From the NCBI GenBank assembly GCA_963669155.1, contig OZ022587.1, positions 4,236,121-4,300,120 on the forward strand: a stretch of 64,000 nucleotides of DNA, in the 5' to 3' direction. Under the pieces are notes generated by a model. It did no database searches and had not been told where the DNA came from. It was given only the letters and a program-made list of their open reading frames with translations. Position 1 is the stretch's first letter; each line of letters begins with the position of its first letter. Source of the DNA: Arbacia lixula (Eukaryota; Echinodermata; Echinoidea; Arbacioida; Arbaciidae). The position numbers and the translations under genes were made by a program. This document shows, in pieces, positions 1 through 34,376 of this stretch.

Positions 1-671
1 GACATTAATGGGGAGTGGTGGGTTCCCATGGCAATGTAATAAACACCATAGAAGTAGGTAGTGATGGGTTAACATGGCACAAAGGAGGTTTATTTAGACC
101 ATGGGCTAAACCAATGTTAATCCATGGTTTAAATTAATCTCCCTTGTGAATTTAACACACCGAAGCATCCTTGTAGAAGACTCATTTAAGAAGGTTGGGT
201 GCAAGACAATGGCCAGATTCTTAATGGTGATAGGTAGCAATAAGTTACCATGGCACAAAGGAGGTTTATGTAGACCATGGACTAAACCATGGTTAATGCA
301 AGGTTAATCCATGGTTTAAACAAAATAAACCTCCTTTGATACTTCAGGTCTTAAACCCAAAGTAGAAGGCTCTAGAAGACTCATGGAAGGAGGTTTTGGG
401 CCCAGACAATGGCCAGGTTTTTTATGTAATGAGGGGTGAGGTATTACCATGACAATGTAATACACTATAACACATAATAGTTAATCCATAGTTTAAATAA
501 ACCCCCAACGTGAATTTGGATCTGTAAGACAATAGCCTCGTAGAAGACTCACCTAAGGAGATTAAGGGCCCAGACAATGGCATGGTTCTTGATTTTCATG
601 GGGGTTGGGGGAAGGGTGTGATGGGTTACCATGGCAATGTAATGCACTATAACACAACATAGAAAACTCAC
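1..671 (-). repeat. Tandem array of exon 12 donor-edge copies
   Basis: In gene orientation, three degenerate copies of the exon 12 end plus first intron bases follow the real exon, at about 553-600, 385-430 and 187-232. They read approximately IKNHAIVWALNLL, KNLAIVWAQNLL and IKNLAIVLHPTFL against the real IKNLAIVWAPNLL. Each is followed by TGAGTCTTCTA-like sequence; the nearest copy keeps an intact GTGAGT donor, the farther two have AT in place of GT. Spacings are about 120, 170 and 200 bp, the rest of each unit being CCATGG/AAACCATGG-containing intron sequence. The array continues to the window edge. Confidence 0.9.
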
Positions 672-859
672 CTGAGTAGGTTAGGAGCCCAGACGATGGC
701 AAGGTTCTTGATGTTCATGCTGGTCTCCCCGCTGAAGGAGGAGAGGTTGGACAGGTGTCGGATGAGGAACTGCAGGGTGCGGTAGTGGGGAGGGGGAAGC
801 TGCTGGACGGTGTCGTGCATCTTCACCAGACGGTTCTCCTCACCAGACATCGCCGCTTC
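672..859 (-). CDS. ARHGAP32: Exon 12: RhoGAP domain, helix with invariant APN
   Basis: Residues 486-547 plus two bases. VQQLPPPHYRTLQFLIRHL and KNLAIVWAPNLL match the vertebrate family almost residue for residue. N545 of the APN motif corresponds to the invariant asparagine that stabilises the switch regions. Acceptor is GTGTTTGCAG and donor CTCAG|GTGAGT, phase 2. The expected continuation (SKQIE...) is left of the window. The last ~45 bp plus donor recur three times in the downstream intron (553-600, 385-430, 187-232), and the acceptor once upstream (937-980). Confidence 0.97.
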
Positions 860-1285
860 CTGCAAACACAATCAAGGAGACAAACAACATTGATATTGTC
901 ACTTTCATCTTCTTTTTCATTGGCATTGTCACTATCATAGCCGCCTCCTATGAACACAACCAAGGAGAGAGACGGACAACGGTTACATACCATAGCTAAC
1001 ACCACGCTCCACATTGCAAATGGTGTCTGAACATCCTTTTAAGGGTTTTCTTTTTAATATAAGGCCCTTGTTCAATTTTCTAGTGTTTACGGTGAAGGGT
1101 TCTGATTTGGGTGCATGCGTGGACCAGGGGCCTACAATTTTGTGTTTCCCCATTTACACATTCCTGAAGTCAGTGTCATTGTCATTGTCATTGGCATTGT
1201 CGCGGTAATTGTCATTGTCATTGGCATTGTCGCGGTAATTGTCACTGTCATTGTCATTGGCATTGTCATTGTCACTATCACAAAC
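860..1285 (-). repeat. Intron 11: GACAAT-type minisatellite and copy of exon 12 acceptor edge
   Basis: The 426-bp intron is largely a hexamer-based repeat (ATTGTC/GACAAT) at 1168-1282 that begins within a few bases of the exon 11 donor, with related blocks at 890-943. At 937-980 a second copy of the exon 12 acceptor region occurs (GTTCATAG followed by GAGGCGGCTATG, against the real GTTTGCAG-GAAGCGGCGATG), including the flanking TTGGTTGTG sequence. Confidence 0.8.
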
Positions 1286-1527
1286 CTCAAACTTGGTGTA
1301 GAGCTGATAGGTAAGGAGTGGGTTTGGCAGCTCCCTGAAGTACAGCTTACAGACAGACGACACACAGTGAATGTCCTTGATGTACTCCTCTAGGTTAGGC
1401 GTGTTCTCACTATCAAACTGGTCTCTAAGGTACTGCACGTTCGATGCCACGCCCGACAACCGGTAGATGCCGTCGCAGATGCCATGCTGCTCAATGAACT
1501 GGCAGCATTGGTGGACGACAGATGGAA
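1286..1527 (-). CDS. ARHGAP32: Exon 11: RhoGAP domain with arginine finger
   Basis: Codon 405 to 485. HGICDGIYRLSGVASNVQYL carries the catalytic arginine finger (R427) inserted into the GTPase active site, and VCKLYFRELPNPLLTYQLY carries the conserved lysine (K465) and the LYFRELPNPL signature. Both motifs are intact, so the GAP is predicted active. Acceptor is CTTCCCACAG and donor TTTGAG|GTTTGTGA, a weaker donor than its neighbours. The exon frame stays open for about 130 nt into the intron through a GACAAT-type repeat, so intron retention would add an acidic Asp/Asn tail. Confidence 0.97.
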
Positions 1528-1774
1528 CTGTGGGAAGAGGGGAAAAGTCTTGATATTTAATTTGAAATCATTAAATGAAAGACTAAATAAAACAAAACAT
1601 ATACCTTGATAAAAAAAAAAAAGTTGTGAGATTTTAAGTTCAATCATTAAGTGGAAAAAAAGAGATGACAAAACATAAAATACCTTAAGAAGAGAAACAG
1701 TTTTAATCGGTTTAGGAAGGGGTCTGACCCATTGCAGTCTCCAGACTTTATTGTTGGAAGTAAGTTAGAGTTAA

Positions 1775-2575
1775 CCCTAATACTCCAGGGGTATTTCAAA
1801 GCTTGTTATTACCGGGGAAGGGGGGGGGGGGCATTATGGCCCCCCCCCCCCTGAGATATCAGCCATGGGTCGCCCGATTGCCTCAAAATTTTGCACAAGG
1901 GTAAAGAATTATGTAATCTACAAAGTTGTATAGCTAAATTTACGAAAGTCCTTTTATTTTTTTTTCAACTAATTAATTTATGCTAATTTATGCGAGAAAT
2001 CATAGATTTTGGTATTTCTCACTAAATAAAGCTTCAGGAATAGCAATTTTTGGTACAAATGTCTTTCATAGCTCCCTCATCATTTCTTGAATGAAAAAGA
2101 TAGGTTGTGGTAATTATTTCGTATGTATTTTATTGTTTTTCAATTTTCTTATGTATTTCTCTGTTTTTCGTCAAGATTCAGATGCGTATGCATGGGTGTG
2201 GGTGTGTGTGAATGTGGGTGTGTGTGTGGGTGTGTGTGTGTGTGGTAATTATTTACACTATTTGAAACAATGATAACACTTATTAGAAAAGTATTTACAT
2301 AAATTGGAAAAGCTCCTGATTTTATCCATAGGGTTATACACAGTCACATAGAGAAATAGCGAAATTTCAGTGACATGTGTTCAGTAAACGTAATCTGACA
2401 CCCGCATGGTAGGTCCAATCGCCATAAATTTGGTATCAAAATGTGCGGGAAGGATCAGAGAAAAAAGTCAAGAAATTTCGTTTCGAAATATTGAGGCGTT
2501 AGGAAGAACCGACAAAACTTCGACAGGGGGGGGGGGCATAATGGCCCCCCCCCCCCCCCACCGGGAGTATTAGGG
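1775..2575. mobile_element. piggyBac-like MITE 1 with G/C-run hairpins
   Basis: Flanked by TTAA on both sides (1771-1774 and 2576-2579), with 12-bp perfect terminal inverted repeats CCCTAATACTCC. TTAA target duplication plus a CCCT terminus is the signature of the piggyBac superfamily; no transposase is present, so this is a nonautonomous copy of about 800 bp. Just inside each end is a hairpin made of a G run, the spacer CAT(T/A)ATGG and a C run (1817-1852, 2526-2559). A (TG)n-like tract lies at 2193-2243. The rest is AT-rich. Confidence 0.72.
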
Positions 2576-2704
2576 TTAAAGCCTTGCTCACAGGATATAG
2601 AGAGGTACCATGCACACAAATACAGCATGTGCACCATCTTCACTGCCTGGGGAGTATTCCTTGCCCGCTGCATGATATTGGCATTGTGTTTAGATCATTC
2701 ACAT

Positions 2705-2830
2705 AATCGTCCACCTCCTACCAGGTACCCATTCATAATCCTGTGTGGAGAGCAGCAATGTGGAGAAAGTGTCTTGCTGAAGGACACACGGTGTCATGGG
2801 TGGGGTTGAACAGTGGGACCTTGAGATCTT
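2705..2830 (+). repeat. SINE-type fragment (tRNA-derived 3' module)
   Basis: The sequence has CCACCTCC, AGGTACCCATTCATAATCCT, GTGGAGAG, then GTCTTGCTGAAGGACACACG and a GGGGTTGAAC remnant. This is a module I recognise as common in invertebrate tRNA-derived SINEs and LINE tails (GGTACCCATT..., CTTGCTCAAGGACAC, GGGGTTCGAACC). The pol III B-box equivalent is eroded. It is old and truncated. Confidence 0.5.
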
Positions 2831-3396
2831 CAGTCACACCTCACACCCTCTGAAGAGTACCCAAGTGTGATATCATATAAGCATGTTACCAAGACAAATG
2901 GTTCTAAAGCTATGTGGATAGAGCAAGCAGTGGTGATCAAAGCAGGAACTCTCAATAGGAGTGCAGGGGACTAGCCCACTTGACAATGTCAGACCAGTAC
3001 ATCTCTCTCTTGAGGGATGTTGTTTAGAACCAGAGACCTGCATATCAATGAATATGACGACACCACTTCACAACCTCTACACCATGACAGATGACTGATG
3101 AGAAATACCAGTCACTGAGAGCCGTCTCTGGAGAGCAGCCAAGTTACAGGGAGTGAGACTTGGACGTGATCCACTCACCGCAGTGTGATACAATGATGCA
3201 AATTCACAACAGCTGGGCGGTGGAGAGTACCACTTTGTCCTGATCTGGCCAGCTATAGTATTGGGCCAGAGGTTCTGAGTAACACGGTTTGCAATAACCC
3301 AATATTCAACACTAGCAGTGCATTTCCTTGAAGATTGCGATGGGGAAGGATCCTACCCCCAAGGCTTTTTCAGAACTATAACTTATAGAACCTTAA
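2831..3396. other. Intronic stretch without recognised feature
   Basis: Unique-looking intron between the SINE fragment and MITE 2. I see no exon, splice-flanked open frame or repeat in it. Confidence 0.5.
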
Positions 3397-4113
3397 CCCT
3401 AAAACGGCCGGGGGGGGGGGGGGGGGGGGGTTGAATCAACCCCCCCCCCCTGGACGTTTCGCGCAATAATGCCGCAACACAAGAACGACTCATCGCGACA
3501 CTTCTTGACTTTTTTCTTTCAAGTCTTGCGCATCTTTTGAGACCAAATTCGCGACATCCACGCATACCATTACGGAGCCACGCTCATTTTCGTAACGCAT
3601 GTCCTATGGAAAACACTGCTCGTTCATAAAACGCAAAAAAGCCTAATTATTTTTCAATTTGATAATTTTGATTGATTAATTTGATGCTAATCATGGCTGA
3701 AAAGTGGTCACTGACAATTTTCAATAAAAAAAAAAAGAAAAACAAAGAAATACATAAGAAATTCCAAAAACAATAAAATACATAAGAATTAAAATGAATT
3801 TTCAAAGTTTTTTTGATGGCCAATTGTTAAACATATTATTACAGATATACAAACCAAATATTAGACTCTATATTTAAATGTTTGTTATGTACTGTTTTAT
3901 ATAATTGTGGGCTAAATTTGCATAATTAATTAATTAAAATTAGCAATTAACAATTTTGAAAAATATAACAAAATAATCTTGTAGATTATGACACAGGTAT
4001 CGTGCATGCCAAATTTTGTCGCAATTGCGCGACCGATGGCCGAGATCTCAAGGGGGAGTTGAATCAACCCCCCCTGGCCACAGAACAATCCAAAAAGCCC
4101 GGCCTGATTAGGG
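3397..4113. mobile_element. piggyBac-like MITE 2 with G/C-run hairpins
   Basis: TTAA flanks (3393-3396, 4114-4117) and roughly 16-bp imperfect TIRs CCCTAAAACGGCCGGG / CCCTAATCAGGCCGGG. As in MITE 1, a G-run, short palindromic spacer (TTGAATCAA) and C-run hairpin sits near each end (3408-3451 and 4052-4075). The central part is AT-rich and noncoding. It shares architecture and terminus with the element at 1775-2575 but a different subterminal sequence, so it is a related but distinct family. Confidence 0.72.
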
Positions 4114-4189
4114 TTAATATCAATGGCATCATCTGGACTTGTGATGGGGTTTGTTATAACCTAGGTCCTACTTAATAGGGTTATGCAAC

Positions 4190-4265
4190 TGATTGCAACT
4201 TTATATAAATCTTAACTCAGTAGATTAGAGATAGGGGATTGGTCACAACTCTTTATAAGTCAAGG
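4190..4265. repeat. Interspersed repeat copy (GATAGGGGATT...CACAACTNTTTATAAG)
   Basis: Shares TAGAGATAGGGGATT and TCACAACTCTTTATAAG with copies at 39060-39167/40999-41090 (split by the LINE) and 44430-44590. Probably a small MITE; ends not defined. Confidence 0.45.
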
Positions 4266-4269
4266 CCCT

Positions 4270-4800
4270 AGTCTCAAGACTTGTTACTGTCGGTGCCAGT
4301 GTTCAGAAGGTGTTCTCTCACGTCACAGCCAAATACGCTCTCCTTGAGGATCGCACCCTCCAACCAGCCTGTGTAAGAGTTACTCAAGCTATAAAAAATA
4401 TTACTCATAGAATCCTACCACCAGTACTATCATTGAGAGTTAACTTGAAGACACGATACTAACAGAACTCTACCATCAGGGCCAGTGTTGAGAAGGTGTT
4501 TACCCAGGTCGCAGCCAAAGACCCTCTTTTTGAGGTTCGCGATGGGGATAAATTTAACCACAGACTGCTCCCTCCTCCCCCTTCTCCTTTTTCTCTCCCC
4601 GTCCCCCCCCCTTTCCACAGCCTTTTCATGGTTAACCAACTTAGAGCCTGGTTAACCCTGAAAAAGCTGAGGGGGGGGGGGGGGGGTAGCAGGGGATAAA
4701 CCTATCCCCATCATGACGCCCCCTCCCCCCTCAGCCTTTTCAGGGTAAACCAGGCTTAAATAACTATTACTGATAGACCATACCATCAGCACCAGTGGTA
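4270..4800 (-). repeat. Degenerate copies of exon 10 donor edge
   Basis: In gene orientation, copies at about 4474-4550 (LKKRVFGCDLGKHLLNTGPD then G|GTAGAG) and 4281-4365 (GAILKESVFGCDVREHLLNT, followed by GTAACA) repeat the 3' half of exon 10. Shorter donor-like remnants with the following TTCTATNAGTAATA sequence lie near 4390-4430 and 4780-4800. The first two keep the frame open through the exon-like part and keep a GT at the equivalent site; neither has a clear acceptor matching exon 10. A small TTAA MITE (4657-4745) is inserted among them. Confidence 0.85.
4657..4745. mobile_element. Very short TTAA-type foldback element
   Basis: Starts after TTAA (4653-4656) with CCCTGAAAAAGCTGAGGGGG and ends with CCTCAGCCTTTTCAGGG followed by TAAA. 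The arms are inverted repeats that enclose G and C runs, repeating on a small scale the design of the larger piggyBac-like elements nearby. A further half-copy in the opposite orientation precedes it (4606-4640). Confidence 0.5.
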
Positions 4801-4831
4801 GGGTTCATTATAAAGAATCATTACTAATGCC

Positions 4832-5376
4832 CTGTTCTCACTAGGTTTTCTTAGCCCCATACTATCCTTAGCCCCGTACTATTTTTTGAAGCTTTTCACA
4901 CTGGCATTTCTTAGCCCCGTACTATTTCTTAAGCCCGACTAGCTGTTCTCACTCAAAATCGTTAGCCCTGGACTTTCTCGACAAAGTGAATATTTATGAG
5001 TGTACGTCTTGCACATCTGCTCTTTACCACTCCGCATCAAGGTCACTCGCCGTTGGGCATTATCTGATTGATCTCGGCGTTTCGGCCTTGAGAGCTGACA
5101 CCGCATTTCCTTAGCCCCGTACTATTTTTCGTTTCTGTTCTCACTTGTGCTCTTAGCCCCGGACTATTTGGCTTGGCCCTGCAATTGCCGGGTTAGCCCT
5201 GCTTTTTTGCAGGGCCAAGTAATCCTGGATTATTGGTGGGGCTAGCCCACTTTGGTAAAAACAAGTGAGAACAGAAAGTGGTCTAAGCTTAGCCCCGTAC
5301 TATAGGTGGGGCTAAGGCCCCCCCTTAGCCCCACCTATAGTACAGGGCTAAGGAAATTTTTGCCAGTGTGAAAAGC
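4832..5376. mobile_element. Compound foldback element next to exon 10 donor
   Basis: Repeated TTAGCCCCGTACTAT motifs occur in both orientations. The outer inverted arms are GCTTTTCACACTGGCA (about 4889) and TGCCAGTGTGAAAAGC (ending 5376), with inner arms TGTTCTCACTTG and CAAGTGAGAACA (about 5137 and 5260). At 5286-5350 a near-perfect hairpin has 29-bp arms (CTTAGCCCCGTACTATAGG and its complement) around GCCCCC. No coding potential. The motif TTAGCCCCATATTATGG in the array at 27030-27760 is similar. Confidence 0.65.
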
Positions 5377-5393
5377 ATATAATAGAACCTTAC

Positions 5394-5543
5394 CCTCTGT
5401 GCCTGTGTTGAGGAGGTGTTCCCCCAGGTCACAGCCAAAGACCCTCTCCTTGAGGATACCGCTCTGCTTCAGACGTCGCCTCGTCGGTCTCTCCAGGATG
5501 AAGGAACGCAGGAATGTGATCAGCTTGCCGTGCTTTCTCAGCA
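5394..5543 (-). CDS. ARHGAP32: Exon 10: linker and start of RhoGAP domain
   Basis: Completes codon 355 and encodes 356-404: RKHGKLITFLRSFILERPT, then ILKERVFGCDLGEHLLNTG, the exact start of the RhoGAP domain in ARHGAP30/31/32/33 relatives. Acceptor is TATGTCCAG and donor GAGG|GTAAGG, phase 1. The 3' part of this exon, with its donor, recurs in degenerate form in the downstream intron around 4281-4365, 4474-4550 and weakly near 4410-4430 and 4785. A 29-bp-arm hairpin lies about 45 nt into the intron. Confidence 0.97.
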
Positions 5544-5644
5544 CTGGACATAGAGGGAGACATATATCCTGGTTATTACATCGTCCACTAAAAACTCTTT
5601 ATGAGCCACATGTGAATTCATTATTTCTTTTAGAAAAATATGAT

Positions 5645-5844
5645 CAAATATGCTTGATCTTTCCTCAATCTGCTTAGTTCAGGCTTGTTCATTCTATTAA
5701 GAAGAGAGCTTTCAAACCCATTGATTTGCACAAAATACGAAGCAAATATGCTTGATCTTTCCTCAATCTGCTTAGTTCAGGCTTGTTCATTCTATTGAGA
5801 AGAGAAATAGCTTTCAAACCCATTGATTTGCACAAAATACGAAT
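5645..5844. repeat. 98-bp tandem duplication
   Basis: Two nearly identical copies beginning CAAATATGCTTGATCTTTCC; the second has a 4-5 bp difference after GAAGAGA. Recent local duplication in the intron. Confidence 0.85.
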
Positions 5845-6198
5845 CAGAAAAACATATATTGTAGTGGGTAGAATTATGATCTTTATTCATTGTTTTGTGT
5901 GTTTGATTTTGTGGAAAGAGGTGAAAAGAAGATTCTTCAGATAAAAAAAGACATAAACACAAAGATTGCCAAAAGTTTGAAAAATACTAAGAAAAGAGGA
6001 GGAGGACATAAAGTGACTAGTCTTATGAATACTAGACTCTAATTTTCAGTTTGGATTAGAAATGTCCCGCAGCCTGGGATCAAGGTTAGCGTCGCCCCAT
6101 TATCTATTGTTATTTCATTATATGTGTTTTGCTAGATTGCTGTATGAAGATTCCTGTGGCATGTGCTGACAGGCTCACCATATCACAATGATTACATA

Positions 6199-6494
6199 GG
6201 CCTGCATTAACGACAGTGGCATAACTTAAAATGTGAACTGAACTAGACTAACTTTATGGGGTGCAAAATAAAATCATCTAATGCTGTCACAAAATCACTG
6301 GTCATCCTAGAATACCAAGTGGGTGATTTCAATTATTCACTGTAATCATTATGTGGGCAAACCCAATATACCATAGTGATTCTGAAGACAAAATCAATTT
6401 TAGTGGTTTATTTTGATTAAGATTTATTTGGTGTCCCATAAAGTTAGTCCTGTTTAAGTACATTATTTGCGATAAACCTTCAGAACACAGGCCA
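6199..6494. mobile_element. MITE, GACTAACTTTATGGG family, copy 1
   Basis: Inverted GACTAACTTTATGGG (6246) and CCCATAAAGTTAGTCC (to 6450) enclose AT-rich sequence; weaker pairing extends outward to about 6199 and 6494. Related copies are at 9400-9631 and a one-ended copy at 57115-57160. Exact termini uncertain. Confidence 0.55.
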
Positions 6495-6667
6495 TACTGT
6501 AGAACGTTAACCATAAGATGAAGTACTCTCATAACAATCCAACTACATGTACAGTAAGGAGGGACTAGAAAGTGATGTACTAGCGATATATGGATGGATC
6601 ATGATCATGGAATGTTAGGCAAACTCCAGAAGAATGAGGCAATAAAGTATACACAAGTGGATGAACA

Positions 6668-6913
6668 TTGAAAGAGGAGAAAGAGAAGGAGGAAGTGAAG
6701 GAGAAAGACAGGGAAAAAGAGAGGGAGAAAGGGAACGAAAAGAGAAGGAGAAAGAGTAGAAGAGGACGGGGAAAAGGAAGGGGGGAGATGGAAGGGGGAG
6801 AAGATGGAGTTGGGAGGGAGAAGAATGAGGAGGAGGAGGACAAGGAGCAGGATGAGGAGGAGGAGGAGAAGGAAAAGAATGAGAAGGATGAGAAGGAAAA
6901 GGAGGACATGTAG
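6668..6913. repeat. Purine-rich (GA/GGA) tract
   Basis: About 245 nt of almost uninterrupted purines on the + strand (AGAAGGAGGAAG-like), with a matching pyrimidine strand. It produces long open frames on both strands (Lys/Glu-rich and Ser/Phe/Pro-rich) that are artefacts of composition. In the pre-mRNA it is a CU-rich run. Confidence 0.9.
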
Positions 6914-6938
6914 AAGAACAAGGCATTAGCAATATTGT

Positions 6939-8053
6939 GTCTCGCCCACTTGCGAAAATAACCAGAAATATCGCGATCTCCGTTGCTACGCAAAAGAATT
7001 GTATCCCTGGCTGATTGTGAAATATCTGCCATAGAATGTAACATTCCATAAATGAGAAGGGCTATTTCACGCAATACTACTTCCTCTATCTACTCCCCCT
7101 CCCCCACCTTCCCCCTTCTTTGAGATGGAATAAAAAGCCTCCACCAAGTTCTATTAGATTAGACAAAGACAAAACAGGATGATAATCAGTTGCACAATAG
7201 AGGAGGTACCCCCAGTGCATCTATGACCCAAGTTAGGTTGTAATCCAAGCAACCTATGTGAAGTTATTTGTCAAAAGAGAGTCTTGCAGGTAAACTTTAA
7301 CGTATGACCTCAAATGACCTTTGACCTTATCCTGTGACCTCCAACGGCACCATAACATGAAGGTACCCCCAGTGCATCTATGACCCAAGTTAGGTTGTAA
7401 TCCAAGCACCCTATGTGAAGTTATTTGTCAAAAGAGAGTCTTGCAGGTAAACTTTAACATATGACCTCAAATGACCTTTGACCTTATCCTGTGACCTCCA
7501 ACAGCACCATAACATGAAGGTACCCCCAGTGCATCTGTGACCCAAGTTAGGTTGTAATCCAAGCAACCTATGTGAAGTTATTTGTCAAAAGAGAGTCTTG
7601 CAGGTAAACTTTAACGTATGACCTCAAATGACCTTTGACCTTATGCTGTGACCTCCAACGGTACCATAACATGAAGGTACCCCCAGTGCATCTATGACCC
7701 AAGTTAGGTTGTAATCCAAGCAATCCATGTGAAGTTATTTGTCAAAAGAGAGTCTTGCAGGTAAACTTTAACGTATGACCTCAAATGACCTTTGACCTTA
7801 TCCTGTGACCTCCAACGGTACCATAACATGAAGGTACCCCTAGTGCATCTATGACCCAAGTTAGGTTGTAATCCAAGCAACCTATGTGAAGTTATTTGTC
7901 AAAAGAGAGTCTTGCAGGTAAACTTTAACATTTGTGACGGACGACGGACGACGGACGACGGACGACGGACGGACGACGGACGGACGACGGACGGACGACG
8001 GACGGACGCCATTTGGATCCCTTAGTCTCGCCTTCACCTCCGGTGGGCGAGAC
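6939..8053. mobile_element. Nonautonomous element with GTCTCGCCCAC ends and internal 157-bp array
   Basis: Left end GTCTCGCCCACTTGCG and right end CGGTGGGCGAGAC are inverted. Inside, 7205-7930 holds about 4.6 tandem copies of a 157-bp unit (GGTACCCCCAGTGCATCTAT ... ATGACCTTTGACCTTATCCT), nearly identical. This is followed by a GACGGAC microsatellite (7934-8007) and a terminal hairpin TCTCGCC...GGCGAGA (8026-8053). A cousin with GTCTTGCCTGA ends is at 17763-18226. No transposase seen. The left boundary, beyond the array, is less certain than the right. Confidence 0.6.
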
Positions 8054-8609
8054 AATAAAAAAGTAAAGGAGAAAGTGAAGGAGAAGGTGGAGATGGAGAA
8101 GGAGAACACCAAAAATAAAAAGAACAGAAAAAGAATAGAGAAAAAGAATAACAATATAAAGAAGTTCTGAAAAGATTTCAAAACTCCTACAATGTAGTAC
8201 ATATAGTAGCACTCTTATAATTGGGGAGAAACAGTACAACAGACTATTGCAAGTCATAACTTCCACTATCTATCAAACTGGGCAAGGCATGAGGTATGAA
8301 AAAAAAATGTTGTGTCAAAATTGTTCCTGATGTACATGTAAGTAAAAACTCATAAAGTGTTACACGGCCTTTGCTGAAACCATGGGAACAAAGCCAAGTT
8401 AAATGATATAATACACATAAAATGGAAGGCAAATAATAATAAAGTGGGAAAGTAGTAAAGTTGAAAAGGATGCTCTTATGACAAGAGGAAATGGGAAATG
8501 CTTTTGACTCAACCTACATAACGTTAACATAATAACAGATGAGGTACACTCTCCTGACTGTACAACTCATTATGGATCAAAGGCAAAGCCTACCAGGGAG
8601 AAAAATACA
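8054..8609. other. Intronic stretch without recognised feature
   Basis: AG-rich at its start (8060-8150), then ordinary AT-rich intron. No supported gene or repeat. Confidence 0.5.
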
Positions 8610-9300
8610 CAGGGGCTTGGGCAATTTCGCCCCCAAATGCTTAAAGATTGTCCGTCCCTTTTGCAAGCTTAAAATTTGAAATCGTCTATCACGATCGTAA
8701 ATTGAAGAGAGTGTGATTCAAGACCATTTCTAAGAATATAGCATGTTGAAGCTTTCTGTATATGTAAAAAATTTCAGCCGTTAAATTTCAAACCGACTTT
8801 TTTCGTACTACGAAAAAAGTATTAGTCTTTGTTACAGTATCTATGTGGTTATTATGCATTGTGAAATCCTAATTTTATGAGTAACTACCAAACTTTGGAG
8901 ATGATTCCTTCCATATAACAATTTTTTTCATAATGCGTTTTTTAATTTAATAAACAGATTGATCAATAAAGCAGATATTTCAACAAAAACTGCTAAGAGC
9001 CTGAGGTAAAGACTATTAAACAGACGTTGTTTACGTGCATTATTTGAATTTTACACTACGTATCAGTTTCAAATTGTGAATATAGAGCTTGCTAACACTT
9101 CTCTATATGTTTTGCCAATGTTTCGATGGTTTTGTGGTGATCTGAAAAAGGGACTAGCTGTCTTTAAAAGAGCTCCCCAAATTCCCATAGACACAATGTA
9201 GAATTGTAGCTAAATGGCCAATGTACTTAAAAAGAAGCCCCCCAACATTTTGAATTTTGACAAAATTGATTCCTTTCCCTGGAGTCTACAGTGAACAAAA
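8610..9300. repeat. Interspersed repeat interrupted by ~500-bp insert
   Basis: Ends match the compact copy at 29610-29790 (GGGGCTNGGGCAATTTC, then TTAAAAGAGCNCCCNAAATTC and CTTAAAAAGAAGCCCC). In this copy the two halves are separated at about 8645 and 9155 by unrelated AT-rich DNA, so either this copy carries an insertion or the other a deletion. Confidence 0.55.
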
Positions 9301-9399
9301 GCTACAGGATTTGAAAAATCAGCCTGAGACCAACTTTCAAATGCTGACTGCAATCGATTTGCAATCAAATCCAGTGAGCTTGTGTGTCTGTGAACATTA

Positions 9400-9631
9400 G
9401 CCCGTATTCACAACAATGGTTTATCTTAAACCACCTACTAAATGTAGACTAACTTTATGGGGAGCGCAAATCTTATGTTGTGATTCTATGTGATTCTGAG
9501 GATAAAATCAATTATATTGAGTCAATAATAATATTTTTGTTCTTTTATTTGGTGTCCCATACAGTTAGTCCAGGTATAGTACACATATTAAATTAAACCA
9601 CTGGTGTGCATATATGGGCTATTGCTTACAA
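9400..9631. mobile_element. MITE, GACTAACTTTATGGG family, copy 2
   Basis: Outer ends AGCCCGTATTCACAACAATG and CATATATGGGCT are partly inverted; inner inverted blocks AGACTAACTTTATGGGG (9446) and CCCATACAGTTAGTCC (to 9571) match copy 1. Confidence 0.55.
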
Positions 9632-11250: not shown

Positions 11251-11252
11251 AT

Positions 11253-14410: not shown

Positions 14411-14579
14411 CTGGTTTGGGTCCTTTAGGTACCCTCTCAGCTACAGCCTGAGGCAGCTTGTCACTGATGATCTCCACACACTGTCTGGGGAAGAAGCCTA
14501 CGTCGAACTTGTTCTTGCCTCGCCACCACGACGTGTCTTCTGGGGGCGGCATGTCGATCACCGAGATCATGTCGCCAAC
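14411..14579 (-). CDS. ARHGAP32: Exon 9: rest of SH3 domain
   Basis: Residues 299-354 plus one base. VGDMISVIDMPPPEDTSWWR contains the paired tryptophans (W316, W317) of the SH3 ligand groove, followed by GFFPRQCVEII, the conserved proline (P329) strand of SH3 domains. SH3 modules bind PxxP peptides; in vertebrate relatives the domain contributes to partner and membrane recruitment. The basic tail RVPKGPKP leads to the RhoGAP linker. Acceptor is TGTCTCTAG and donor CCAG|GTGAGC, phase 1 end. A complete MITE (14142-14369) ends 41 bp below the donor. Confidence 0.96.
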
Positions 14580-17465: not shown

Positions 17466-17588
17466 CTCTAGGGAGATCTCATCTGGGGCTTGCGCTGTGT
17501 AGCGCTTGATGACGTGTGCTGCCGCCACCGCGGGAATGTTGATGGCCGACTCTTCACTGGCTACAACGTGGTTACCATGGTTATCAAG
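17466..17588 (-). CDS. ARHGAP32: Exon 8: PX-SH3 linker and start of SH3
   Basis: Residues 258-298. LDNHGNHVVASEESAINIPA matches the vertebrate linker (DNKGNHLLVHEESSINTPA), and HVIKRYTAQAPDEISLE starts the SH3 fold in place of the usual ALYDY motif, as it does in ARHGAP32/33. Acceptor is ATGACAACAG and donor CTAGAG|GTAAGA; phase 0-0. The exon lies 46 bp downstream (+ strand) of a TTAA-flanked MITE ending at 17419. Confidence 0.96.
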
Positions 17589-23460: not shown

Positions 23461-23464
23461 TGAC

Positions 23465-24887: not shown

Positions 24888-24903
24888 GCTGCCCTCTAGT
24901 GGC
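24888..24903 (-). promoter_or_regulatory. CTCF-like binding motif
   Basis: The minus strand reads GCCACTAGAGGGCAGC, which fits the bilaterian CTCF core consensus (CCASYAGRKGGCR) with no mismatch that I can see. It lies in a relatively GC-rich, repeat-poor part (24600-24920) of the largest mid-gene intron, which could also host an alternative promoter. One motif match by eye does not prove occupancy. Confidence 0.35.
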
Positions 24904-24919
24904 AAAAGGAGTTAGGTGG

Positions 24920-27029
24920 CATTTTACTGATATGAGAGTAATAGTCTGTCAGTTGAAAGAATGTCAATATAACACAGTATACATTTGTGTATCAGCGGGC
25001 AATGTAGCCTTATTGGCCAGTAATTTCTTGTTATAATTTTGATAAAGCGATATCTAAAAGTTGAAGGAGCAAATAGTATTGATTGGTTTGGGTGAAATGG
25101 CCTTGCTCGTTTACTACAAACGGGATATTTTCCCCAAATAGGAGTTGGACAGACTATTCGAGTTCATTTTTGGATTATTGCTTGAAATCAACTGAAGAGC
25201 ATTCCATAAATCTTGTGTTAGATCCCAATGTTTCATGTAGAAATATTGAATGAATATGTGAACGTCCTGGTTAAAAATTTCTTTTTTGGAGAAAAATTAA
25301 TATACCCCCCTCCCTGAAAATGTACTTTACTCCCTATTTGTAACTAACCAGAAAATACATTTCAAATAGCTAAAATTTGGAACAAAATATATCGTGCTCA
25401 TTCATACATCTGTGAATGATACATGTTTGATATTGTTGTGTCTTGTCAGGGAGTGAGAAGCACCCTATTTACAAATTCTTAATCTTGATCACTTGCGACC
25501 TTCTTGCAGGGAGTGTGTGCTGAGGGGTAGGTAAGAGATCAAGATGGGTGTAACTATTGGGCAGCTAATCCCCAGGGGGGTATTACTGTGTCCGACTAAC
25601 CCTCGCATGACTGAGAGCGAACCCATGGGCATGATGGGAAGGGGGCAGAGGCTCATGGCAAGGGCGCTAATCCGCAGGGAAGGGCTAGAGACGACCCCCC
25701 TCTCTCACTCTCTATGTTCCTCCTACGATATGTCTCAGCTAAACAGCTGTGCATCACAACATTAATGTAATTTAAGTTTTGGAAAATCAATGAAATGATT
25801 CCCAAATGCCTGATACTTATTCATCATTACACATTTATATTGTATTATCATTTATTTTGTCTTATCTAGTAATTATATGTATCTATGTTTCATATGTCCC
25901 TTTGTACTTATACCTATGGTAAGTAAAACTTTCTTTCCAAATAATATTTTCATTTCCCTCAAGCCTGTGCCTTTTTAGGAAAAAATACACGGTCCTTTTT
26001 CTTTCTACATATTGTTTAACATGGACATTTTATTGAATAAATAACCAATTGAAATGAATTTAATTCTTAAATTTCACAGAATTAAATTTGCCATAACACT
26101 GAAGGCAAACAAGGTGTTAAACATTAATAACTCCACACACATCACACTGAACATGATAGGCCATGCAGTGGGGGGGCGTTACACATAACATGGAACGGCA
26201 AGGGGGAGGGGTAGGGAGGGGAAATGGGGGTCGGAGGTTGGGTGCAGTGACTACTGAGGACAACAGTAAATCATATCCATGAGACAAACAAAGAAAAACA
26301 ATCACACAAACACTGATATGAATGATGCCATAACAAACAGAGCTACAAAAATTTTGATGGGGGGGGGGGGGGGGGAATGTACATATGAGACAATGCTAAC
26401 TTCTGCACTTGCTAGTTTGGAAACCTTCACATTATTGTATCAAAAGTAATACCACGCTTACCGGTATTACTTTTCAATCAAAAACATCTATAACAACTGC
26501 AGTTTTGTGAGGCTCAATATTAATGGGGTACCAAGTTATTGTTTAGTTTCTTCATCAGGAATAAGCCCTTTTAAAGCTTTCATGTGTACTTGCTTGTCAT
26601 TCTTTATGAAATCAAGTACATTGCACAGTACTCTTCACAGCATGCTATCCGTCATAATGAATCAATTATTTCAATCATGTACTGAGGGGTTCTGTAGAGT
26701 GATAAATATCATTGTAGTAGTTTATGGTAGAAGTAAAATAATGATCAGTTTTGCTCTAAAAAGGCCCTCGTCCCGATTGAGTTAACAGCGGAGAGGTAAA
26801 GCCTAGCTCACAAGATTTTCCCTTTAAGCCACACTCATCTACTGCGGTTGTTCCCACAATTAAATTTACTTTACATACACACATAAGCGCAACAAAAACT
26901 TGGCAACTGGAGTCAAGACATGAGAAAAGGGGGATTTCTGGTCAACGCACTTTGGGGTTTTATCTTGAGATATCTTTATAGTTTGATCCTATTTCAGGCA
27001 TTCATGTTCCTGTGCCAAGAAGCTGTTGA
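24920..27029. other. Intronic stretch, few features
   Basis: A GC-richer block at 25500-25710 has a 74-codon open frame on the + strand (25544-25765) without family match or clear splice sites. A G run of about 17 lies at 26360-26376. Otherwise nothing supported. Confidence 0.45.
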
Positions 27030-27760
27030 TGCTGATTGGTACAATCAGTCTGAACCACTTCACAAGCAACCTACAAGCCTTCCACATTTAAAAGGGTGAT
27101 AAAATGTTGAGGAATTATCCATGCAATATGCCTATAACCTCTTTACATTGGGTTATCTTAGCCCCATATTATGGTTAGCCCCTTAGCATTATTAACTATT
27201 TCAGAAGCAACCTACAAGCTTGTACATTTAACAGAGTAATAAAATGTTTAGGAATTATCCATGCAATAGGCCTATACCCTCTTTACATTGGGTTATCTTA
27301 GCCCCATATTATGGTTAGCCCCTTAGCATTATTAACTAATTCAGAAGCAACCTACAAGCTTGTACATTTAACAGAGTAATAAAATGTTTAGGAATTATCC
27401 ATGCAATAGGCCTATACCCTCTTTACATTGGGTTATCTTAGCCCCATATTATGGTTAGCCCCTTAGCATTATTAACTATTTCACAAGCAACCTACAAGCC
27501 TTGTACATTTAACAGGGTAATAAAATATTTAGGGAATTGTCCACGCAATAGGCCTATACCCTCTTTACATTGGGTTATCTTAGCCCCATATTACAGGAAC
27601 TGTTGGCCCCTTAACATTAATACAATCACGGTCTTACCTACTTTACAAGCAACCTACATGCCTTCCACATTTAACAGGCTGATACAATGTTTGAAGAATT
27701 ATTAATGCAACAGGCCTATACCATTTTTACAATGCGTTTCCTCATAGGGCACAGTTAAGT
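27030..27760. repeat. Tandem array, 140-bp units
   Basis: Five copies anchored by AGCAACCTACAAG at 27065, 27205, 27345, 27485 and 27647. Each contains GGAATTATCCATGCAATAGG, CTCTTTACATTGGGTTATCT and TTAGCCCCATATTATGG. The middle copies are nearly identical. Confidence 0.92.
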
Positions 27761-28459
27761 TATACACCTCTAGTTACTGCATTTCCATGGCAACCTTTGA
27801 CATCCTAAGTGGACCATGGTTCACAAAGCCCCCAAATCTAACCATGAGCAACAAGTATATAACAGCATAACCTTTTTAATATCACATACAGGCATAAGTG
27901 AATGGTTTAATATAGTTTGGTGAAAAATCAACTAGAATGTAGATATCCCGTTTTGCAGCTAACTCTTCTTGTACCAGTCATGATATTGAGTCTTGATTTA
28001 GTCATGATCCTAATATAGTCTAGCTGAGAGAATATAGGCCAACTTGTCTGGGGAGTAGGGGTGATAATTTTCTTCCCAAACATTGATAAGTGATTGCTCT
28101 TAAAGGGGAGATGACGTTATGCAGACATCATGTATCAACATCAGGTTTCTGACGTCAAGTACCACTTATGAAGTTAGTATTAACTTGGTGTGGGAAAATA
28201 AAACACAACTACATTTGATGCAGCACATTTCTGAGAATATAAAAGAACATTCAAGTTATTTCCTTGGACCTTAAAAATACAACCCAAAAGTATAAATGCA
28301 TGGCAAATACACTGCAAAAAGCTTTAAGAATACGTACCTAGTTCTCAACGCAATGCTTGATAGATGATTATATCAAGGGAACCCACCCCCCCCCCCCTCA
28401 AGATCTACCTTAATTCATTCAAAACATCTAGCCTAAATATGATTTATATATCGTTTGAT
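27761..28459. other. Intronic stretch, C run only
   Basis: A C run at 28387-28398; otherwise no recognised feature. Confidence 0.45.
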
Positions 28460-28625
28460 TTTAGACTGCGGTCTGAGGCATAGTAATAAACGTGAATATA
28501 GCACTCGATGCAAAACGTGCGCATTCATCTTTGGACCAAATCAAGCGCACTTATTTGCTTACCAGTATGCCCACAAAATTTGCCTTTACCAGTCTAAATC
28601 TACAGCTCCTGTGTGAATTTGGGCC
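28460..28625. mobile_element. Right half of GGCCCAAATTCAC MITE
   Basis: Ends with GTGTGAATTTGGGCC and contains AATCAAGCGCACTNATTTGC and AGTCTAAATCTACAGCTCCT, matching the right half of the copy at 16531-16895. Left half missing or unrecognisable. Confidence 0.55.
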
Positions 28626-29604
28626 AACCAATACCTTTAAAACCTCTTGTGGTATGATATTACTCATTAATTTGCATCGTGGGTGTTGTTTGATTGTAAA
28701 GGTTTAAAACAGGGTTGTATCTTTAATAAGGAGGAGGGGAAACGGCGCTGTAGGCTTGGGCTAAATAGAGAGAGATGGGGAGGAAATGAGAAGTTCCTCT
28801 GACTGGCCCATCAGCCGCCACATATGACACTTCCCCAGGAGCTCTTCCTCAAGATACCAAACAATCATTAGTCTACCTTATCTTCAGGCGTGTTTACATC
28901 ACATGCATACATGTTACACTTGTTACACTCTCACCAAGAGCATTTCCTTGTAATAATAACAATGTTCTTCAAGTGCTTTTCATCTTTTTTGTTCTGAAAG
29001 CAGCCCAAGTGGGCGCATTACACAGACTGACAATATGCCTATATCACACATAAATACATACATACACCACAGTTTTGATGAGATAACATCTCAAATGTTC
29101 TGATGAAATGCTCCAAGAAAATTTTTACCTGACTTTTAGTTTGAATTCACAAGCAGAGAGCTTCACTTTATATTTTCAATGATGCATTTGCCTATTAGAG
29201 CTTATACATAAACTAATATATACCAGTATATATATAATAATACAGCATATAACACATATCACGTAGGCATAACTGCATGTCTCCATGCATCCCAGTGATA
29301 AGTAATGGTCTATTGAAAAGGAGGCAGTCAGGATAAGATTACTTAAACGGAATCAAGTTAGAGAATGATTGAGAGAGAAAGATAAATAATGATATATAGC
29401 TTTTAATTAGAGCAACACCAAACCTGTAGCATTGTAATACATATATACCAAGCGTTCTATATCATTTCAATACGTACTGTGCATGGAGTGCACCTGAACA
29501 GTATCCATTCTCTGCTCTCACCATAGTGTAGAACATTCATAGTAGGCTGGTTCACAGCGCTATGACTCAGCATGGCTTATGGAGCTAGCCAGGCCTATTC
29601 ACTC
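28626..29604. other. Intronic stretch without recognised feature
   Basis: A decayed LINE/SINE tail may be present at 28940-29030 (AATAATAACAATG, then GTGCTTTTC, GGGCGCATTACA); the rest shows nothing supported. Confidence 0.4.
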
Positions 29605-29790
29605 CCAGTTGAAAAAAAAATGCATGGGGGCTCGGGCAATTTCACTCCCTGAAATACTTAAAAGAGCCCTGGAAAATCATAAAAGAGCCCCCGAAATTCC
29701 CATGGACACAATGTAAAATTGAAGCCAAATCGGCAATTTGCTTAAAAAGAAGCCCCAAAAAATTTTGAATCATTTTTTCCCTGGTACAAT
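29605..29790. repeat. Interspersed repeat, compact copy
   Basis: GGGGGCTCGGGCAATTTCAC ... CTTAAAAAGAAGCCCC; same family as the interrupted copy at 8610-9300. Confidence 0.55.
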
Positions 29791-30289
29791 TTCTAATACA
29801 TGTTTAAGTGCCGCATGGTCCTCTTTTTCTTAGCATAATCAAACAGAAAAAAAAAAGATGCGCGCTTGCAATAAAATGCAATGGCTGAAATAATCAACTT
29901 TAACAGATCTCTCTGAACTGCTTTGCGTATAGAATGCACGCCCATATTTAAATATAGATAAATATGTACTTGTAGGTATATATAGCTAAATATAGCTAGC
30001 ACAACTAAATATACAAATTGTTTGTGTAATTGAGTCAATAATGATGAATCCCACTATAATGCATTATTTTGTAGCAAAAATAACCATCTTTTGTAGGAGT
30101 GCAGAAGTAAGCAAGTAGAATTTCTTTCTCTTTTCTGTTTTGCAGGATATTGAAGGGATGTTGCAAACTTAAAATGCAAACAGAGTCAAAACAAATGTAG
30201 CTGATCTTTACCTCGATATGACAACCAATGTTATCAATCTGCAACAGGCAAAACAAGGGGTACACCGTGACAGGCAGGCATAGACATGG

Positions 30290-30600
30290 GGTGCAGATGG
30301 GGGGGGGGGTACAAGTAGGGGCAAGGAGGGGGGTTATGGGTTAGGGGAAGGGGGAAGGGGGAAGGGGAGGGGGTTAAGGGAAAAGGGGAGGAGGGGTTAA
30401 GGGGAAGGGGGAAGAGGAGGTTAGGACAAGGGGGAGGAGGGGGTTAGTCGAAGGGGGAAAAGGGGATTAGGAGAAGGGGTCAACATTGAGACATCAAAAC
30501 AGTGAGATATGGGTGTACCAAGATAGCGGATAGCATAGACACAGTGGGTGGGTGGAGGAATGGGGGGGGGGGGGGGGGGGGGTAGGGGAGCAACTCACAG
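30290..30600. repeat. G-rich low-complexity block
   Basis: GGGGGAAGGGG/GGGTTAGGGG-like units and a G run of about 22 at 30561-30582. Strong quadruplex potential on the + strand, which is the non-transcribed-sequence strand of the host pre-mRNA. Confidence 0.8.
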
Positions 30601-31439
30601 ACAAATTACAGTGACATAATGGTATGTAGAACAGGATACATACATTTAAACAAAAATATGTTTGAAAGGGGATGGTGAGGATAAAGAGTTTCTTAAGAGG
30701 AATTAAATCACCATGGAATTAATGGGTAGGGTACACGTAAGACACAAGAAACACAAAGTAGACAGACAGTAAGAATGACAGAAGAGTGGTTTGGATGAGC
30801 ATGTAGAATGAGAAAGGGGGAGGAGAGATATGAAGAAATACAAGAAGAATTCATCATTTACTCATGAAAGATGATGTAACATTTGAACAAATATGAATCA
30901 AAATCTGTTTTTTTTTTTGGTTATTTCCTGAGTGGGCTTCTAAATACAAACCAGAGAATATTAGCAATCTGATCCACACATGAGCCAGAAATGAACTTTC
31001 CAGTGATTACATTGATTGATTTGCAATCGAATTAAATGACTGACTAGTAATGACTAGAAATAATGAAGCGTTACTAACAAATAATTGTTTAATTTAAAAA
31101 ACTCAAAAAACAATTTTGCAGCGGTTACTTTTCAAGTATGAACCATGAAACTAGTCTAATTACTATTAAAAGCTATGAAAATGTTCTATTTATACAATCA
31201 AGAGATTTATCTGGTGTATAGGTAAATTTAGGTTTGATAACCTAATTCATGTTTTTCATCCTATCCAATGATTTTGTCTTTTTTTACAGAGAGTCTACCC
31301 ATGAGGCAAATCTCATTTTACCCTCGATTTGACTCCAGCACATTATTGACCCAGACACACTCCTAGCAGTCTGGACTATATGGGAGACATGGCTCAACAC
31401 TCTATCATGCAGAGGTTGAAGTACAGATGAGCCTGGCAT
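30601..31439. other. Intronic stretch without recognised feature
   Basis: AT-rich intron; nothing supported. Confidence 0.45.
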
Positions 31440-32260
31440 CAACTTCCAGTCATTGCAATCTCTGACTGCGATTGATTGCAGCTAACACAATCAGCTCGGT
31501 GTGTTTGAACACATTGATTGTAATCACTAACTGCAATCAAATATAATCTGCGTGGTATTTCACCAAGCTGTTCATAAGTTAGGAACGACTTTACGAACAA
31601 CTGGTGATCCCCTCTTGTGCTAAGTCAGATTATCAGTGAACAGAGTGTGGTATCACATTTAGCACAAGAAGGGATCACCAGTCGTTCGTAAAGTCATTCC
31701 TAACTTACGAACAGCTTGGTGAAACACCCCACAGGTCCATGTGTTTGTACACATTTGTTGGAATCACAGAATGAAATTGATTCGATCACATGTAATCAGT
31801 TCTATGCATTGGATATGTTGATTGTAATCATTGGCTGTGTTTGATTGCAATCAAATGTGATCAGCTCCATGCACTTATATACACTGATCATAAACAGTGA
31901 CTGCAATCAATTGCAAGCACATGACATGAGCTCTATGCAGTGTAAAACTTGATTGTAATTCCTGACTGGGATTGATTGCAATCAAATTCAATCAGCTCCT
32001 TGCATTTGTTGTACATGTACACATTGGTTGACATCACTGACTCCTACCCCGAGAAGGGGGTCGATAGAGTTTTAAAAATCTGATCTTAATCTGACTGCAT
32101 TTGCTTGCGATCACTTACTGCTATCGGTTGAAATTAAATGCAGTCAGCTCCATGCAATGGATATATCAATTGTAATCAATGACTATATCTGATTACAATC
32201 ACTGGCTACACCTGATTGCAATCAGCTGAGAAGCTGATCCCAGACTCCACTGTATCGTTA
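31440..32260. repeat. Degenerate array, ATTGCAATCAAATNNNATCAGCTCCATGCA units
   Basis: Eight or so copies of a 75-90-bp unit containing TGATTGCAATCAA, ATCAGCTCCATGCA and TTGATTGTAATCA. The unit is itself partly palindromic. Interrupted by a MITE at 31551-31733. Confidence 0.75.
31551..31733. mobile_element. MITE with ~70-bp inverted repeats
   Basis: GGTATTTCACCAAGCTGTTC at the left is inverted at the right as GAACAGCTTGGTGAAACACC; the arms extend through TAAGTTAGGAACGACTTTAC and CTGGTGATCCC to TTGTGCTAA, around a ~35-bp centre. Few mismatches, so young. Inserted in the array around it. Confidence 0.85.
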
Positions 32261-32322
32261 ATGAAGCTGGACTGTACTGATGAGTGAGTGGGTGGAGACT
32301 AGGTGTGTGATTGTTTGTTTAC

Positions 32323-32415
32323 CTCAAGCCAGTTGAGCACGGGTCCACAGTTGATCATGTCGCCTGCAATCTGGCAGAAACGGGTCACATAGTGGGTCAG
32401 CATCGCCTTCACAGC
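32323..32415 (-). CDS. ARHGAP32: Exon 7: end of the PX domain
   Basis: Residues 227-257, including FCQIAGDMINCGPVLNWLE, which matches the vertebrate block INCGPALTWME at the PX C-terminus. Acceptor is CCCTGCAG and donor CTTGAG|GTAAAC, phase 0-0. The acceptor's upstream intron is a long purine microsatellite on the + strand (32420-32600), so in the transcript it reads as an unusually long CT-rich polypyrimidine tract directly at the splice site. Confidence 0.95.
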
Positions 32416-32419
32416 CTGC

Positions 32420-32600
<181 letters not shown>

Positions 32601-32689
32601 GTTGACAAATACCTAAACACTAAAAGCATGTTTCAACCACTACTAAAACAATAATATTTTTGCATATTCCCTAAAAGCCTTTCCTCATT

Positions 32690-33507
32690 CCAGGAAGGGT
32701 GTTCCTACCTCTTTTCTACTAATAGCATTCCTTTTAGACTGATCAAAGACAATCACTATTACAACTTTCAACAAAACGAAACACAACATGAACTCTGAGT
32801 GTTTTGTGTAGGGCACGAAAGTTGTTTATTCCACATTAACAGTCTCCATTCTAAAATTGGAATCTCCCACTACTACCAGGAGGTGTGTCTCTAAGTTTAT
32901 GCTGCCTGTGAGGGTGTTGTGTAGGACAATCCCAAGAAATACAAGCATGTGTAAATTTTAACCTCCTGCTTAAAAATTTGATAAATCCACACATTATCAT
33001 AGTCTCCTATCTAACATTGGAATCTACCACTTCTAGCAGGAGGTGTTTTCCTACCCCTCTGCTTCTAGTGAGGGTTTTGTGTAGGGCAATCCCAAGAAAT
33101 ATATGTATACCCCTGCTAAGAAAGTTGATAAATCCACATTATCATAGTCTCCTATCTAGCAGTAGAGTCTACCACTACTACCAGAAGAGGTGTTTCTACA
33201 TGTACCTCTATGCTTCTAGTGAGGGTTTTGTGTAGGGCAATCCCAAGAAATATAAGTATACCCCTGCTAAGAAAGTTGATAAATCCACATTATCATAGTC
33301 TCCTATCTAGCAGTAGAGTCTACCACTACTACCAGAAGAGGTGTTTCTACCTCTATGCTTCTAGTGAGGGTTTTGTGTCGTGCAATCCCAAGAAATATAA
33401 GTATTTGTAAATATAACCCCCTGTTAAGAAAGTTGATTATTCCACATTATCATCATCTCCTATCTAACGCTGGAATGTACCACTTCTACCAGGAGGGGTG
33501 TTCCTAC
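32690..33507 (-). repeat. Tandem array of exon 6 donor-edge copies
   Basis: In gene orientation, units of about 145-185 bp repeat ACAAAACCCTCACTAGAAGC, ATAGAG and GTAGAAACACC, equivalent to the real exon 6 end GAGACCCTCACTGGTAGC, AGAGAG|GTAGGAACACC. Copies at about 33350-33395, 33205-33250, 33056-33100 and 32886-32935, with a remnant near 32700. Three or more copies keep GT at the donor position. Intron part of the unit is TAGATAGGAGACTATGATAA-like. Confidence 0.9.
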
Positions 33508-33753
33508 CTCTCTGCTACCAGTGAGGGTCTCCCCCTTGGGAAGCTCCACCAGCTGGCTGAAGCGGCGGTCATAGATGCATTTGTGCAGCTGCTTGTCCAG
33601 GACGCGGAAGTCTTCGTAGGACCGCTTGAGGAGCCAGGCCTTGCCCTGGCCCTGCATCCTGAGGGTGAAGGGGCACTCCATCAGGTCTATGTCGCCCTGG
33701 GATTGGTCTAGGACTAGACTAGTTCGGTCCTCCCCTTCTTCGTGCATGGTGAT
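33508..33753 (-). CDS. ARHGAP32: Exon 6: core of the PX domain
   Basis: Encodes residues 145-226. The PX signature KRSYEDFRVLDKQLHKCIYD begins at about residue 187; the KRSYEDF part is the conserved phosphoinositide-binding strand-turn of PX domains, and YDRRFSQLVELP follows as in ARHGAP32. PX domains bind phosphatidylinositol phosphates on membranes, though in this family binding can be weak. Acceptor is CACACTCTAG and donor GAGAG|GTAGGAAC, phase 0 at both ends, so the exon could be skipped without a frameshift. Both edges of this exon recur as degenerate tandem copies in the introns on either side (32690-33400 and 33790-34370), some retaining splice-site dinucleotides. Confidence 0.96.
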
Positions 33754-33759
33754 CTAGAG

Positions 33760-34376
33760 TGTGAGAGAGATGAGAAGCACAATATATCATCAATGAGTCT
33801 AGTCTAGGACTAGGCTAGTCCAGTCCTCCCCTTCCTCATGCATCTAGGTTTGTGAGAGAGATGAGAAGTACAATATATCAGCATCGAGTCTGGTCTAAAT
33901 AGACTAATGATTATGGGTGTATTATATGTTCTTAAATCTGGTCTAGAAGACTAGTTATCTAGGGTGTGAGAGAGATGATAAGCACAGTATATCATCACTA
34001 AGTCTGGTCTAGGACTAGACTACTCCGGTCCTCCCATTCTCCATGCAAAGTGATCGAGAGTGTGAGAGAGATGAGAAGCATAAGATGTTATTATTGAGTC
34101 TGGTCTAGTAGACTAATGATCTGGGGTGTGAGAGAAGAGCAGCACAATATATCATCACTAAGTCTGGTCTAGTAGACTAGTTACCTAGGCTCTGAGAAAG
34201 ATGATGAGCACAATATATCATAATTGAATCTGGTCTGGTAGACTTATGATTAAAGGTGTGAGAGATTACATGCACAATGTATTAAGATTGATTCTGGTCT
34301 AATAGACGAGTGATCTAAGGTGTGAGAGAGATGATACACACAATATATCGTCATTGAGTCTGGTCGAGCCTACAAG
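33760..34376 (-). repeat. Tandem array of exon 6 acceptor-edge copies
   Basis: In gene orientation the closest copy (33797-33865) reads CTCACAAACCTAG then ATGCATGAGGAAGGGGAGGA, coding MHEEGEDWTSLVLD against the real MHEEGEDRTSLVLD. A second (34001-34080) keeps the exon-like part but not a clean acceptor. At least five further units (TCTGGTCTAGTAGACT...GTGTGAGAGAGATGA) have lost the exon-like middle. Period about 65-110 bp. Confidence 0.92.

Follow-up and report, generated by a model that had tools for sequence, protein, structure and literature searches.

Why should several exon edges of one gene reappear, in degenerate form, within the introns beside them? The question is raised by a 64,000-nucleotide (nt) stretch of contig OZ022587.1 (positions 4,236,121 to 4,300,120, forward strand; the whole stretch is hereafter the window), whose minus strand carries at 1-34606 eight exons of what looks, from its sequence, like an ARHGAP32/33-type RhoGAP gene. 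The joined exons, 5-12 in the numbering of a first-pass annotation of this DNA, form a single open frame with consistent phases, encode RhoGAP (3.5e-45), SH3 (1.8e-9) and PX (9.5e-5) domains of Pfam, and have RICS (3iug, 7.4e-74) as the best relative of solved structure. Local copies occur at five exon edges of this gene, namely the acceptor and donor of exon 6, the donor of exon 10, and the acceptor and donor of exon 12. We found that exon junctions are not detectably preferred for such copies, and the arrays are very probably ‘mirages’, a by-product of ordinary local tandem duplication that happened to span exon-intron boundaries.

Edge copies at exons 6, 10 and 12

Edge copies were searched for by blastn at an expectation value (E) of 1e-3, and further units were taken from multiple alignment. 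The copies that the first-pass annotation had noticed at exons 6, 10 and 12 are real by blastn and alignment, and 0 of 2 x 1432 sampled positions of local first-order Markov sequence reached the score threshold. They carry ~12-64 nt from a single edge of exons that are 150-246 nt long, which is not tandem duplication of whole exons. Copies at exons 6 and 12 lie head to tail.

At the exon 6 acceptor, the array lies upstream of the exon and consists of units of 65 and ~91 bp that repeat the polypyrimidine tract and AG. Two of the seven copies retain ~50 nt of exon, and five lack most of the exon sequence in the alignment; blastn recovers six (two exon-bearing and four shorter), the fifth short unit being visible in the alignment only, in agreement with the two exon-bearing and several deleted units described earlier. 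The unit at the exon 6 donor is ~151 bp long and joins the last 20-24 nt of the exon to ~127 nt of intron. Four to five copies had been claimed here and blastn found five, three of ~150 nt at 75-83% identity, a fourth shortened to 101 nt (78%) and a fifth shortened to 30 nt (90%). The inner units c1 and c2 are identical at 143/144 aligned sites, the exon-bearing unit has an identity of 0.84-0.86 to c1-c3, and c4 has 0.75-0.81 to the others (c5, with fewer than 10 bases aligned, was left out of the matrix). Similarity of the intron part equals that of the exon part, which takes in ~9 nt beyond the array in this alignment, and the intron part probably stays similar through homogenisation, for which this array alone was examined.

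The two clear copies reported at the exon 10 donor were recovered by blastn (83-84% over 68-76 nt), and the two weak ones appear in the alignment only, below the blastn threshold. Both clear copies lie downstream of the real donor, the first (~62 exon nt with 14 intron nt) by 920 nt and the second (~64 exon nt with 4 intron nt) by 1106 nt. Among the three copies reported at the exon 12 donor, two were found by blastn and the third by alignment only; the latter was excluded from the pairwise identities. A possible fourth, degenerate copy was recognised by eye only just outside the window (stretch L033), where blastn gives a 30-nt match to the intron part of the exon 12 donor unit. In the donor copies of exons 10 and 12 the exonic portion corresponds to conserved RhoGAP sequence, so copying there went from exon to intron. 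The single copy reported at the exon 12 acceptor is supported by blastn as the weakest of all. Without a break it gives way to a (GACAAT)-like repeat similar to the beginning of intron 11, so the copy looks like a chimera of both intron ends; intron 11 itself opens with a (GACAAT)n-like repeat (936-1285). Exon 1 had also been named as a possible case, but the candidate exon at 57757-57887, with a provisional start, has a local copy at neither edge.

Junctions against the intronic background

We compared exon edges with intronic positions for the presence of a local copy, defined as a copy within 1.5 kb, with short-period repeats masked from a hand list in the gene and window tests and by Tandem Repeats Finder (TRF) in 20 other stretches. 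Within the gene, 5 of 18 edges (without the candidate exon at 57757-57887) had a local copy, compared to 17.1% of 4741 intronic positions, and circular shifts gave a mean of 3.0 edges, with 19.2% reaching five or more. Stricter scores left 4/18 edges, matched by 30% and 22% of circular shifts. BLAST coverage of 10 bp on each side was seen at 4/20 edges vs. 20.6% of intronic positions, and coverage of 15 or 20 bp on each side at 2/20 (both exon 6 edges only) vs. 19-20%. Of the 41 local-copy blocks in positions 1-36000, only five reach an exon edge, and no local copy was present at any of the 74 exon-interior positions sampled. Two intronic arrays without exon edges lie at 7204-7929 (157-bp unit, 97%) and 27059-27593 (140-bp unit, 95%).

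The 607-Mb assembly yielded 53 RhoGAP exon matches, and we compared 20 stretches around 38 of these, with 50 edges called by rule above score cut-offs. Local copies were found at six of these edges (4/22 donors, 2/28 acceptors), compared to 894 of 7055 intronic positions (12.7%), where some of the called edges are possibly misplaced and the intronic positions may contain unrecognised exons. All six were confirmed by eye as exon-edge copies. A tandem unit spans the intron/exon boundary at loci L010, L012 and L021; the first of these (L010:1661-4173) is a minisatellite with a 63-bp unit, of which 38 further full repeats stand at 95.7-100%; it repeats the donor, starts 12 nt into a RhoGAP exon and may extend past the stretch compared. 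Pooling both samples gave 11/68 edges vs. 9.4 expected (odds ratio 1.14, p = 0.73). Separately, C29:271396-273388, on a small contig, and C3:16618718-16620438 both match three RhoGAP pieces with near-equal E-values, and the pair is perhaps an unmerged haplotype copy.

These results indicate that exon junctions are not detectably preferred for local copies. The first-pass proposal that arrays are seeded repeatedly on junctions is therefore not borne out, and its other suggestion, that tandem duplication is locally frequent and selection spares only copies landing in introns, is supported by the near-background edge frequency. Several observations nevertheless weigh against reading the arrays as chance hits of ordinary duplication. 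Elsewhere in the window the background is 7.4%, against which 5/18 would look high, although we hold that the gene's own introns, not the remaining window, are the fair comparison. Local-copy density is 8% beyond 3 kb from exons vs. 14-27% nearer, and this lower density far from exons could hint at more duplication near them; the nearest 100 nt, at 19%, is not the highest bin. Background across the 20 stretches spans 0.3% to 50%, and the pooled test takes neighbouring positions as independent. Because only 68 edges were sampled, an enrichment of up to ~twofold in the pooled data and ~threefold in the gene is still compatible with the counts. The exon 10 copies, given their distance and the little intron they carry, also form no clean tandem array, such that intervening sequence must have entered.

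An alternative is that junctions break, or slip during replication, more readily than other sequence, for instance because of co-transcriptional R-loops, and thereby seed arrays. Five edges in one gene are striking and in excess of the remaining window, and intron less than 600 nt from an exon is richer in local copies than intron beyond 3 kb, but we consider this explanation improbable, as there is no significant excess over the gene's introns or in the 20 stretches and detectability by itself favours edges. In simulations, edge copies were detected in 88, 58 and 27% of cases at 20, 25 and 30% divergence, compared to 53, 13 and 2% for purely intronic copies, a 1.7- to 16-fold advantage for the frozen-edge copy over this range. 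Where the exon is conserved, only the copy changes, whereas in neutral intron both partners do, which makes junctions look special. Old copies are then predicted to show little beyond the exon and the donor consensus, a pattern present at exon 10 and in stretches L010 and L020. Two of the six edge copies at other loci are single copies that match no more than the exon end and 7 intron bases (-31..+7 and -42..+7). The exon 6 donor array, with its equally similar intron part, departs from this prediction.

Local duplication is frequent in this genome's introns, though widely variable (12.7% of the positions sampled around other RhoGAP exons, 17% in the gene studied), and we infer that mirages would follow from it in a few steps. 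Where a duplicated segment catches an exon edge, one copy would stay the splice site and the remainder would turn into intron; later rounds would expand or homogenise the array, as at the exon 6 donor, and the non-coding copies would decay. Selection would meanwhile freeze the coding copy and its splice consensus, so that the exonic part of an old copy can still be recognised once its intronic part has faded. Junctions would consequently appear favoured though the sample shows no preference, which is consistent with the simulation and with the copies that match little beyond the exonic part.

Amphioxus mirages and the copied splice signals

Arrays of this kind had been thought in the first-pass annotation to be an undescribed class, but they were already published in amphioxus. 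Mirages are minisatellite-like tandem duplications across intron/exon boundaries, described in Adh3 and the globin genes BflGb6 and BflGb9 in PMC3087553, which cites Canestro et al. 2002; PMC3902484 adds a mirage in PGBD5 and reports troponin C as well. According to both papers, mirages lie at 5' or 3' edges, their units measure 10-72 or 150-160 bp, AG or GT survives in many units though not in all, and inner units are homogenised with boundary units diverged (PMC3087553, PMC3902484). The RhoGAP copies have in common with them the boundary-spanning tandem unit (exon 6 acceptor and donor and exon 12 donor, as well as L010, L012 and L021), the duplication of both 5' and 3' boundaries (exon 6, exon 12) and partial signal retention (GT in 9/12 donor copies; AG in 5/7 exon 6 acceptor copies), and the exon 6 donor array matches the pattern of homogenised inner and diverged outer units. 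They differ in that several edges of a single gene are affected and in that the exon 10 copies are dispersed, not head to tail. The hosts of these published cases are cephalochordates, whereas the host here has an echinoderm-type mitochondrial code, and the amphioxus cases have RNA and haplotype evidence, whereas the RhoGAP arrays are known from one assembly's sequence.

Two other systems bear some likeness. Introns of amphioxus VCBP3 contain complete or partial exons that share extensive identity with adjacent exons, some with canonical splice sites (PMC2632668); partial exons thus lie in introns in both cases, but the available part of that source gives one sentence, with data not shown and no array anatomy. 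In the Rogers model, as outlined in a review (PMC3443670), introns are gained by tandem genomic duplication of a segment with a splice-like AGGT. Extra splice sites likewise arise through duplication here, but in the model exonic duplication makes a new intron, whereas in the RhoGAP gene existing introns are enlarged and a new intron is not shown. A literature search, which had most subscription journals outside its reach, found among the hits listed no report of arrays of this kind in an echinoderm and gave no match for five repeat motifs of the window.

The first-pass annotation had stated that several copies keep GT or AG, which the counts above bear out (at the exon 6 donor, 4/5 copies keep GT), and the pyrimidine tracts of the acceptor copies resemble the real ones. 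Such copies might be maintained because they serve as decoy splice sites, adjusting splicing or provoking nonsense-mediated decay, and each of the 15 intact predicted decoys checked (nine donors, five exon 6 acceptors and the exon 12 acceptor) would add in-frame stops. We regard this as very unlikely, since the retention would be about what divergence alone leaves, in-frame stops are expected from most intron sequence, and reverse transcription polymerase chain reaction in amphioxus, according to PMC3087553, pointed to regular splicing. The 12 changes private to one of the exon 10 copies comprise six at codon position 1, one at position 2 and five at position 3; the single change at position 2 is in the direction that function would predict, but 12 changes are too few to show coding constraint.

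An interspersed or transposable repeat family that adjoins exons by chance is almost certainly not the source: the window does contain mobile-element sequence, such as a 501-aa reverse-transcriptase frame of non-long-terminal-repeat type (by eye) on the minus strand at 39495-41000, upstream of exon 4, but the exon 10 and 12 copies contain conserved RhoGAP coding sequence, none of the five edge units matched beyond its own neighbourhood inside the window by blastn, and the genome-wide search of 607 Mb (common words skipped, best candidates alone scored) matched the exon 6 donor and acceptor units to their own arrays only, which at its sensitivity largely refutes such an origin for them.

The host, the gene model and wider meaning

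The mitochondrial COX1 gene on contig C590 has 12 in-frame TGA codons. Compared by eye with mammalian COX1, AAA stands at Asn in 2/2 cases, ATA at Ile in 6/9 and at Met in 0/9, and the three AGA codons align with Ser, Ala and Lys. This codon usage points to translation table 9, which is used by echinoderms and flatworms; in amphioxus mitochondria AAA encodes Lys. Genes on one strand follow the order large ribosomal RNA, COX1, tRNA-Arg, ND4L, COX2 and tRNA-Lys (ND4L and COX2 by eye), which we take to be the sea urchin and sea cucumber type, not that of starfish. Both the gene order and the closeness of COX1 to its mammalian counterpart argue for an echinoderm host.

Features of the RhoGAP gene are collected in Table 1. 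The acceptor of exon 6 (ctctag/ATCACC) was picked to suit phase and pyrimidine tract and by comparison with a vertebrate homolog.

Table 1 Exons of the RhoGAP gene and local copies of their edges, in window coordinates.
Feature	Position	Strand	Evidence and remarks
Exon 12 donor copy 3	185..240	-	Alignment only, 39/63 over exon part; GT lost
Exon 12 donor copy 2	373..427	-	76% identity, E 3e-6; GT lost
Exon 12 donor copy 1	541..600	-	85% identity, E 2e-14; TAG/GTGAGT retained
Exon 12, RhoGAP domain	672..859	-	Open frame/phase and structure match; both edges copied nearby
Exon 12 acceptor copy	936..968	-	81.8% identity over 33 nt, E 1e-4
Exon 11	1286..1527	-	No edge copy; short-period repeat starts few nt beyond donor
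Exon 10 donor copy 2	4284..4351	-	83.8% identity, E 4e-16; GT kept
Exon 10 donor copy 1	4460..4535	-	82.9% identity, E 8e-18; GT kept
Exon 10, start of RhoGAP domain	5394..5543	-	Open frame/phase and structure match
Exon 9, SH3	14411..14579	-	Open frame/phase; no edge copy
Exon 8	17466..17588	-	Open frame/phase; no edge copy
Exon 7	32323..32415	-	Open frame/phase; no edge copy
Exon 6 donor-copy array	32690..33528	-	TRF, BLAST, alignment; five copies
Exon 6, PX part	33508..33753	-	Open frame, phase 0 both sides; each edge within an array
Exon 6 acceptor-copy array	33704..34368	-	Self-BLAST E down to 1e-58, alignment, TRF
Exon 5	34522..34606	-	Open frame/phase; no edge copy
Exon 4, candidate	35668-35753	-	From splice signals and an open frame only

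Given the echinoderm-type code of the host's mitochondria, mirages would not be confined to cephalochordates, and what is new here is an instance of known mirages in what looks like another phylum, apparently genome-wide. More tentatively, and with slightly more doubt than belief, we extend this to exon-edge mirages occurring genome-wide in an echinoderm as in amphioxus, perhaps in early-branching deuterostomes generally, with about one edge in 6-8 bearing a local copy that includes splice signals. If this is true, introns would be continually resupplied with decoy sites and also with material from which exon boundaries could shift and new introns arise, while conserved exons would serve as fixed references for dating old tandem duplications. 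Mirages, so far an oddity known from a handful of amphioxus genes, would become a common outcome of local duplication, with a null model in which edges are hit near the background rate and frozen exons keep old hits visible, and the role of local duplications in splice-site turnover and intron gain would become measurable genome-wide.

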